Origin: Calothrix membranacea FACHB-236
GTDB taxonomy: Bacteria > Cyanobacteriota > Cyanobacteriia > Cyanobacteriales > Nostocaceae
Direction: 5' to 3'
Assembly (NCBI RefSeq): GCF_014696315.1
Contig: NZ_JACJPX010000044.1
Span: 1-64,000 of the forward strand
Length of the DNA: 64,000 nt
Shown: one piece after another, positions 46,446 through 55,094 of the stretch
Position numbering within the stretch: the first letter of the stretch is position 1
Layout of the letters: every line of letters begins with the position of its first letter
Notes under the pieces: generated by a model
What the model saw: the letters and a program-made list of their open reading frames with translations, nothing else
What the model was told of the DNA's origin: nothing
Databases searched by the model: none
Program-made: the position numbers and the translations under genes

Positions 46446-46847
46446 CTACCAGACATAGCACAGTACTTCTCCACCCAAGTTCTGACGACGCGCTTCGCGG
46501 TCTGTCATAATCCCACTGGATGTTGAAATAATGGCAATGCCGATACCGCCCAGTACTCTGGGTAAATCTTTTCTATTGGAATAAACTCGCAAACCTGGCT
46601 TACTAACCCGCTTAAGGGCAGTAATCAGTGGCTGACGATTTTTACCCTTGTATTTCAAGGAAATCACCAGGTTCCGTTTTACACCTTCACCTGATTCTTC
46701 AAATTCTGCAATAAAGCCTTCATCACGTAGTACTTTGGCAATACTACGGGTGAGTTTTGTTGCGGGCACTAGTGTAGTTTGATGCCTCGCCAAGTTGGCA
46801 TTGCGGATGCGCGTCAGCATATCTGCAATTGTGTCGTTAGCCGCCAT
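46446..46847 (-). CDS. rpsH: 30S ribosomal protein S8
   Basis: A 133-residue 16S central-domain binder; in E. coli S8 also represses the spc operon. Blocks: [40 protein letters not shown] and C-terminal [20 protein letters not shown]. It lies 20 bp after rplE; rpsN, normally between them in many bacteria, is absent. Confidence 0.98.
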
Positions 46848-52793: not shown

Positions 52794-52896
52794 CTTTGTC
52801 ACTTGTCCTTTGTCATTTGTCCGTTGTCACTTGTCCTTGGTCACTTGTCTTTAGCCAATGACTAATGACTCGTGATTCTTGACTAATGACTCTTGA
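52794..52896. repeat. heptamers between rplC and rplD
   Basis: A dense run of TTTGTCA/CTTGTCC/AATGACT units occupies the whole 103-bp spacer and extends to the rplD start. Confidence 0.85.
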
Positions 52897-53529
52897 CTAA
52901 CCAACTTGTTTAGCAGGCACGATATTTACGAGAGCGCCTGGTTTTCCAGGAATAGCTCCTTTGATTAGCAGTAAATTGCGCTCTGCATCTACTCGCACTA
53001 CTGTCAACTTGCGGATTGTGACGCGGCTACCACCTAAGCGTCCTGCCATCCGTTTTCCGGGATAGACACGACCTGGGGTTGTACCAGCACCAATGGAACC
53101 GGGCGCTCTATGGTTTTTAGAACCATGTGACATTGGCCCGCGACCAAAGTTGTTACGCTTTTGGTTGCCTGCAAAGCCACGACCGATACTTGTACCGATT
53201 ACATCTACAATTTGACCTGCACTAAAAATATCTGCTTTAATTTCTTGACCTAAAGCATAATCGCTAGCAGTATCTGTACGATACTCATTCAAATGACGTA
53301 ACGCTGGGGCAGATGATTTTGCTAAGTGACCTAAAAGCGGTTTGTTTAGTGCCTTAGGTTTAACTTCGCTAAAACCAACTTGAATGGCAGCGTAACCATC
53401 AGTTTGTTTTGTTTTAACTTGGGTAACAGTGCATGGGCCCGCTTGCACAACGGTGACAGGAATTGCTACTCCTGCATCGTCAAAGATTTGGGTCATGCCC
53501 AGCTTGGTGCCGAGAATACCTACAGACAC
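52897..53529 (-). CDS. rplC: 50S ribosomal protein L3
   Basis: A 210-residue assembly initiator and the first gene of the ribosomal cluster (rpsJ is elsewhere, as in other cyanobacteria). It starts at GTG 53529 with [20 protein letters not shown] behind an AAGGAG site (plus 53546-53541). The loop toward the peptidyl-transferase centre contains [20 protein letters not shown]. Preceding it is the long structured region 53545-54195. Confidence 0.98.
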
Positions 53530-53544
53530 AGTAACTGGTTCTCC

Positions 53545-54195
53545 TTATCTACTTTCTAACCTTGGCATCGGACTCTAAAAGACATAAATTTTGCACACCG
53601 AGTGAGGTTGGATTAGCCTCCGAAATTTATAGCCGCTTTGGCTACTCCAACTTCTCCGGGACACAAAACACTATGTCCTTACTGTTTGGTGAATCCGTTT
53701 ACTTTCACTCACTAGTTCACCAGAACAACCATAAGCACCTTCCTGATGGGAAGGGCAACTTCTGGAATCAAGGCAAGGCTTTAGAGCTTTGCGCTTTGTG
53801 CAGCAATGCTTTCATCCGAGCAATTGCTTAGGCACTTTCTGGAGGCAGCGTCTTATGCGGATTTTCCACTTTAGACGACAGCCGTGTTGTAGTGGGACTT
53901 AAGCAGCTTTTGCCACCCAGTATCCTTTAACTAAGACTGATGTAATGCGATCAAACCAACATTACTGCTCAGTTTCTACTCCGACTAAAATACCTTAAAC
54001 TATTGTTCAAGGTTTTGCCCACTTTTTCAGGACTACAGGAGTGAATGTAGTCTGGAACTTAGGGTTGGCTTTAATTACCCAGCCGTAAGTTCTGTATTTG
54101 ACCCGAAAGCTTTTTTAGTGTACCAGTCTTCGGCCAATCTCAGCTAGATTCATCCTTGTTGGAGTCAAGTCATCAGCCCTTGATGCTCACACTAG
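53545..54195 (-). ncRNA. large structured RNA / leader upstream of rplC
   Basis: About 650 nt with no minus-strand ORF of note, but at least thirteen complementary segments in order (plus coordinates): 54189-54194/54116-54121, 54171-54175/54181-54185, 54136-54140/54146-54150, GAACTTA 54055-54061/54086-54092, GACTACA 54031-54037/54046-54052, ACCTTAAAC 53992-54000/54005-54013, 53936-53947/53960-53973, CGTCT 53849-53853/53873-53877, AGCAAT 53802-53807/53823-53828, CCAGAA and CCTTCC 53720-53743/53749-53765, 53689-53693/53716-53720, 53659-53663/53674-53678, GTTGGA 53607-53612/53646-53651. Two stems (53992-54013 and 53857-53869) need G-U pairs that exist only on the minus strand. It ends at the rplC ribosome-binding site. 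No family was recognised. A leader or an independent RNA are both possible. Confidence 0.6.
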
Positions 54196-54523
54196 CTTAG
54201 AATGCCAATAAGATGGCAACCTAATTTGCGTATTTGGTCACAATCTAACAATATAAATGATTTATTTAGATTTGTCTATAAATTTTTTTGCATTGGGCAT
54301 TGGATAATCGGTAATTGGTAATTGCTAATAGAAAATTTTTATTACTACCCTACTCCTTCATGCTCTATATCTCCCCTGCCCAAAGGTCTCAAAATTACAT
54401 TGAAGCGATATAAATGGGTTGTTACCAAGTAAAGCTAATCCAGATCATAAGTTTATTATTGAACTGAATTTAGCGGTTCGCGGTAAATAATAGAGATATC
54501 TAAGTGAGATAGAACGAATATCT
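54196..54523. other. AT-rich promoter region of ndhN and the rplC leader
   Basis: About 330 bp in which divergent promoters must lie. Composition drops sharply from the structured region to AT-rich sequence near 54235. No certain promoter could be assigned. Confidence 0.5.
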
Positions 54524-55000
54524 ATGGCACTACTTACCACTGGCAACGCTTTTATTCGCGAACTAGAAAAAGTTGGATCTCTTGGTGTTTATGTTCCTCC
54601 AGAAGGGGGTTATGAAGGTCGGTACCGTCGCCGGCTACGTGCAACTGGGTATGAAACTCTCCACATTACTGCTAAGGGGCTAGGGGACTTGGCTGCCTAT
54701 CTCACAGGAGTTCATGGAGTTAGACCACCTCATCTGGGTAAAAAAAGTACTGGTACTGGTGCAGCAGTAGGTCATGTATACTATTTGCCACCTATCATCA
54801 GTTCTCATCTAGAACAGTTACCGCCAAAGTCTAAAGGACTAGTTTTGTGGATTATTGAGGGGCATATTCTTTCAAATCAGGAACTTGACTTTTTGACAGC
54901 CTTACCACGCTTGGAAACAAAAGTCAAAGTAGTGATTGAAAGAGGTGGCGATCGCGCTTTCCGTTGGACTCCTCTAGAAAAAACGCTTTTAGCGAGTTAG
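54524..55000 (+). CDS. ndhN: NDH-1 subunit NdhN
   Basis: A 158-residue subunit N of the cyanobacterial photosynthetic NDH-1 complex, used in cyclic electron flow and respiration on the thylakoid. The sequence MALLTTGNAFIRELEKVGSL and VYVPPEGGYEGRYRRRLRAT is characteristic. No membrane helix is seen; it belongs to the peripheral arm. It is divergent from rplC. Confidence 0.97.
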   Translation: MALLTTGNAFIRELEKVGSLGVYVPPEGGYEGRYRRRLRATGYETLHITAKGLGDLAAYLTGVHGVRPPHLGKKSTGTGAAVGHVYYLPPIISSHLEQLPPKSKGLVLWIIEGHILSNQELDFLTALPRLETKVKVVIERGGDRAFRWTPLEKTLLAS

Positions 55001-55094
55001 TCATTGGTCATTAGTCATTAGTCATTTGTCCTTTGACTCTTAACTTTTGACTTTGGACTTTTGAATAAAGACGCGATTAATCGCGTCTCTACAG
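55001..55094. repeat. heptamers and a 20-nt palindrome after ndhN
   Basis: Tandem TTAGTCA/TTTGTCC units follow the ndhN stop. Then AGACGCGATTAATCGCGTCT (55069-55088) is a perfect palindrome of a type widely dispersed in Nostoc-like genomes. It lies between convergent genes and may act as a two-way terminator. Confidence 0.75.

Follow-up and report, generated by a model that had tools for sequence, protein, structure and literature searches.

A hairpin resembling the S8-binding site of 16S rRNA in the leader of the main ribosomal-protein operon of cyanobacteria: a probable S8 operator

What is the long structured sequence that separates ndhN from rplC in Calothrix membranacea FACHB-236, and which signal might it receive? 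We analysed a window of 64,000 nucleotides (contig NZ_JACJPX010000044.1, positions 1 to 64,000), for which the original prediction had proposed a large structured RNA on the minus strand, running directly into the rplC ribosome-binding site, that could be an oversized ribosomal-protein leader or a distinct non-coding RNA and matched no family known to it. Our data confirm the structured region and favour a ribosomal-protein operon leader on that strand, whose widely kept core has the internal loop of the ribosomal protein uS8 site. The gene names rest on Pfam (PF11909 for ndhN, PF00297 for rplC, PF00410 for rpsH, E 1.6e-50), and the features discussed below are as follows.

54524-55000, plus strand: ndhN.
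54250-54278, minus strand: conserved sigma-70-like promoter, TAGACA-17-TATATT.
53530-54243, minus strand: rplC 5' leader, the proposed transcript, with its 5' end inferred from the promoter.
53992-54013, minus strand: hairpin ACCUUGAAC-AAUA-GUUUAAGGU.
53930-53973, minus strand: covarying helix 53973-53968 / 53935-53930 directly 5' of the core, enclosing the hairpin 53965-53957 / 53950-53942.
53893-53927, minus strand: core hairpin, the proposed uS8 operator, with its 5' loop strand GAUACU at 53924-53919, its 3' loop strand AAGUC at 53900-53896 and the closing pair G53925-C53895.
53631-53646, minus strand: hairpin between the core and rplC.
53540-53546, minus strand: ribosome-binding-site-like AAGGAGA.
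52897-53529, minus strand: rplC (L3), the first gene after the leader.
46446-46847, minus strand: rpsH (uS8), the proposed regulator, ~7 kb downstream in the same gene run.

The spacer folds more stably than expected by chance, although it does so on both strands (z -3.71 for the minus strand and -3.40 for the plus strand, 20 shuffles each), so that folding energy alone does not tell the strands apart. The strand is shown instead by the types of pairs: over seven helices in an alignment of 87 non-redundant family sequences, G-U cells outnumber A-C cells 568 to 116, as an RNA read in the rplC direction would give, although one of the seven (columns 564-578) goes slightly the other way, with 23 against 26. 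The GC content of the leader is 43%, against 31% in the rest of the spacer. The longest complete sense open reading frame is 29 aa and conservation shows no 3-base periodicity; an 89-aa open reading frame lies on the plus strand at 53562-53831. No Rfam 15 family matched the region at its gathering score, with only three sub-threshold matches (E 0.85-4.9), all of them on the plus strand, and no match was found in a plasmid collection. Short tandem repeats of the TTGTCCTTTGTCA / GACTAATGACTCTTGACT type are also visible in the spacers after rplC and after ndhN (52800-52910 and 55000-55060). DNA BLAST found the leader in 195 of 217 genomes of the family and in 12 of 195 genomes of the order, all 12 belonging to the same family and including the own genome.

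Some details of the original prediction needed correction. The promoter-like pair places the start of the transcript near 54243, 48 nt beyond the proposed end at 54195, and the leader at ~714 nt; because two sigma-70-like sites were found in the region against 2.3 expected by chance, this inference rests on conservation of the block over 81 family loci rather than on the motif score. Of the two stems that had been taken to indicate the minus strand, the hairpin at 53992-54013 is conserved (90% mean pairing), yet its double-change score of 0.33 falls within the range of five column-permuted nulls (maximum 0.35), and the stem at 53857/53869 lies in a stretch that is gapped in about a third of 81 relatives. 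A segment just 3' of the core (positions ~444-487 of L001 in the family leader alignment, window ~53843-53886) is missing in about a third of the 81 family leaders, so the leader has an optional module. The same helix scan put three helices clearly above the null: the hairpin at 53631-53646 (0.83, but only 77% mean pairing), the core (0.79) and the outer helix directly 5' of the core (0.62), whereas the hairpin enclosed by the latter (0.24) is below the null maximum. An all-against-all covariation test over the whole leader, with a tree-based null of our own, gave no significant pair; the null had larger maxima than the data (94 against 66) and was therefore too wide, and we claim no significance from it.

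The part that persists beyond the family is the core hairpin, RGA(U/A)ACU followed by a stem-loop of free sequence and AAGUCY. We counted it only in loci fetched by the position of rplC, 96 in all, which were chosen for spread and are not a random sample. A strict motif (both loop strands, closing pair, at least 4 of 5 inner pairs, within 600 nt) was present upstream of rplC in 81 of 90 Cyanobacteriia loci and in 0 of 6 loci outside the class, compared with 1 of 1800 shuffled regions and 0 of 90 antisense strands. Of the nine loci that fail, eight show the two loop strands with a weaker or longer stem, and one (locus L196) has CAGUC for AAGUC. On 58 distinct cores 96% of pair cells are standard (96.4% in the S8 register, where 6 of 11 pairs have changes on both sides), 100 cells have changes on both sides against 27.5 in shuffles, and sliding the partner by one to three columns drops pairing to at most 55%. 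These 58 rows were picked from 135 distinct cores that already had both loop strands, so the invariance of the loop letters is by construction and some bias towards good stems is possible; on the outer side of the loop only the first pair varies.

A covariance model built on the core (R1) scored it at 36.0 bits (E 1.7e-8) in the window, where a weak second match, at 2851-2875 on the plus strand (14.1 bits, E 0.13), is probably chance. In the own genome the leader is the only hit at E <= 10 (E 2.5e-6), and it is the best hit in 11 of 11 genomes of that search. An exact pattern of the core was found in 38 of 292 genomes of the phylum, at 40 places. All 30 loci fetched hold rplC with the pattern upstream of it, although L151, a weak match at 90 nt from rplC, lacks the closing pair and may be chance; of the other ten places six lie at rplC by coordinates, three do not and one was not checked, and a reversed control pattern had three. 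In a named collection a stricter pattern gave 100 stretches, of which 80 were fetched, and in 72 of those 80 it lies within 700 nt upstream of rplC on the same strand; of the remaining eight, five are cyanobacterial stretches in which no rplC was found and three are other bacteria, taken as chance. As a census R1 is weak and misses many genomes whose motif is visible when the locus is anchored on rplC: it found 144 of 195 genomes in the order and 102 of 292 in the phylum, the latter being 32 of 32 in the own family, 36 of 51 in the rest of the order, 18 of 56 in the rest of the class and 16 of 153 outside the class.

The 16 hits outside the class were unexpected, because the rplC leaders tested there lack the motif, and it was these that pointed to uS8. 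We fetched 12 of them, and in 11 of 12 the hairpin ends 10-17 nt before the start codon of rpsH, on the same strand; the twelfth, L289 (20.3 bits), has no S8 match. The internal loop is letter for letter the uS8 site: 16S rRNA of E. coli K-12 has AAGTC at 595-599 and GATACT at 639-644, the two strands of the helix 21 internal loop, and the E. coli spc operator at the start of rplE has GAAACT at +6..+11 and AAGTC at +80..+84, in the strand order of the leader. In the window A53921 corresponds to 16S A642 and A53900 to A595. Published features of the site fit these nucleotides, namely the triples (G597-C643)-U641 and A595-(A596-U644), the invariant A642 and the spc mRNA triple A+80-(A+81-U+11) (PMC4176348). 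Cyanobacterial 16S rRNA has the A form, as 20 of 20 loci carry GAAACT 44 nt after AAGTC; these came from 20 of 34 genomes searched, not including the own genome, with AAGTC but not GAAACT required by the search pattern. The leader core uses GAUACU or, in ten loci (seven of them in a small-genome family), GAAACU, the two forms seen in E. coli and cyanobacterial 16S. The 16S of a record labelled E. coli (NZ_CP091836.1) has GAAACT in helix 21 where K-12 has GATACT, at positions that differ by 22 from those of K-12 (573/617 against 595/639); its label or annotation may deserve a check. We roughly estimate that eleven fixed letters, one of them two-fold, would match one named protein site with a chance of about 5e-7 per comparison. 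The two strings nonetheless co-occur by chance once more in the 14.5-kb E. coli stretch examined, 4.1 kb from rplE, and R1, built on short-loop hairpins, does not detect the E. coli operator, which has 68 nt between the strands (best score 8.3 bits, elsewhere in that region); the match is by loop letters and not by the model. PDB entry 1s03, apparently the complex of uS8 with spc mRNA, is among the relatives of the window's S8. S8-like sequences (below 60% identity to the window's S8) also occur in 14 of 50,697 records labelled as phages, perhaps through host contamination.

By position in front of rplC-rplD, the leader might instead be expected to serve L4 (or L3), given that L4 controls the E. 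coli S10 operon through a long 5' UTR (PMC10931766) and that the cyanobacterial leader has previously been compared with that operon (PMC1242208). The own 23S rRNA does hold AAAUACUGCACC..GGUGAAAGUCC, which looks like the core (..UACUG..AAAGUCC.., domain I by position). However, in the 23S of the other cyanobacteria aligned UACUG is not conserved and belongs to a different, varying hairpin of the GCAG/CUGC type, and R1 scores nothing above 6.7 bits in the own 23S contig. This was the one look-alike we followed, and L4 mimicry in E. coli is probably three-dimensional, so that sequence cannot settle the matter; yet as the core loop equals the S8 site, we consider an L4 or L3 leader very unlikely. 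An independent small RNA made from the spacer, with the location at rplC incidental, seems more improbable still. An sRNA candidate, nc26, is listed with sll1799 (rplC) of Synechocystis and the figure 35, which we read as the distance in nt (PMC5341163), but the core stays with rplC even where no ndhN was detected in the fetched stretch (11 of 30 pattern loci), outside the class it sits at rpsH, the gene of the candidate ligand, and terminators are not above expectation (1 found, 0.9 expected), which also gives no support for an attenuator.

Taken together, we conclude with high confidence, although from sequence alone and without measurements of binding or repression, that the region is the 5' untranslated leader of the fused S10-spc operon (rplC-rplD-...-rplE-rpsH-...) and that its core is probably a uS8 autoregulatory operator. 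The simplest scheme is feedback, in which uS8 made in excess of 16S rRNA would bind the hairpin and lower expression of the operon, including rpsH. That rpsH lies on the same mRNA is inferred from gene order and from other species: a 31-ORF ribosomal-protein mRNA was seen by RNA-seq in S. elongatus (PMC3219970), and in Synechocystis an 18-gene operon has its major start 337 nt upstream of rpl3 (PMC3925133). The hairpin is 395 nt from the rplC start here and 122-451 nt in the other leaders (L151 left out), so the E. coli mode of blocking a start codon does not carry over, and the effect may instead involve masking of the start site by refolding, attenuation or mRNA decay. Outside the class, where the hairpin abuts the rpsH ribosome-binding site, occlusion is the natural guess. 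In the rplC leaders of the small-genome family (L188-L197), predicted folds of several close the leader by a long-range GCCAG/CUGGC helix ending just before the rplC start, and a second GCCAG directly 3' of the core could compete for it, a possible switch.

The core nonetheless explains only about 35 of ~714 nt in Nostocaceae. It is possible, if doubtful, that the leader has two inputs, with uS8 binding the core and another ribosomal protein (for example L4) or another signal acting through the remaining ~680 nt. Several blocks outside the core are nearly invariant in the family, two further helices lie above the null, and profile-placed leaders range from roughly 340 to 725 nt (some placements being weak), longer than a uS8 site needs. 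Yet no second ligand site was recognised, and the conserved blocks could simply hold a fold or tune decay. More speculatively, and only tentatively, one uS8 operator may control the whole fused operon from ~7 kb upstream of rpsH, having changed place between classes of the phylum (the rpsH start outside the class, the rplC leader inside it) while keeping its loop letter for letter, and in Nostocaceae it may have been built into a ~700-nt scaffold with a second, unknown regulatory input.

A review states that spc of V. cholerae is presumably regulated as in E. coli and that other species are unknown (PMC10931766), and a list of 20 new ribosomal leaders had no hit for cyanobacteria, rpsH, rplE or rplN in its main text (PMC7247131). 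Among the titles and abstract openings surveyed, which left out most subscription journals, we saw no paper that names an S8 operator in the rplC leader. Our analysis turns a 2005 leader prediction and a 2014 speculation into a specific hypothesis, giving a concrete, testable site in front of the main ribosomal-protein operon of cyanobacteria, naming a regulator, and showing what looks like a regulatory site relocating within an operon while the operator stays the same.

Regarding known systems, a screen of four marine picocyanobacteria predicted a structured rplCD operon leader at the same place in three of the four (cluster 5 of Axmann et al. 2005; PMC1242208), naming no ligand beyond an untested comparison with the E. 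coli S10 operon. A study of Synechocystis speculated that S8 autoregulates the same operon and placed its target in the 91-nt rpl5-rps8 spacer (PMC3925133); the site found here is ~7 kb upstream, in the rplC leader. The uS8-binding site of 16S rRNA helix 21 has the same 11 loop letters (A or U at 641), with the strand order swapped, as AAGUC comes first in 16S. The uS8 operator of the E. coli spc mRNA shares the loop strands GA(A/U)ACU and AAGUC in the same 5'-3' order, with rpsH on the same mRNA. In E. coli, however, the operator lies inside the third cistron and overlaps its start, with 68 nt between the strands, whereas in the own genome R1 finds only the rplC leader, where the hairpin is untranslated, 5' of the first gene of a fused S10-spc operon and 395 nt from the start codon, usually with a short terminal loop.
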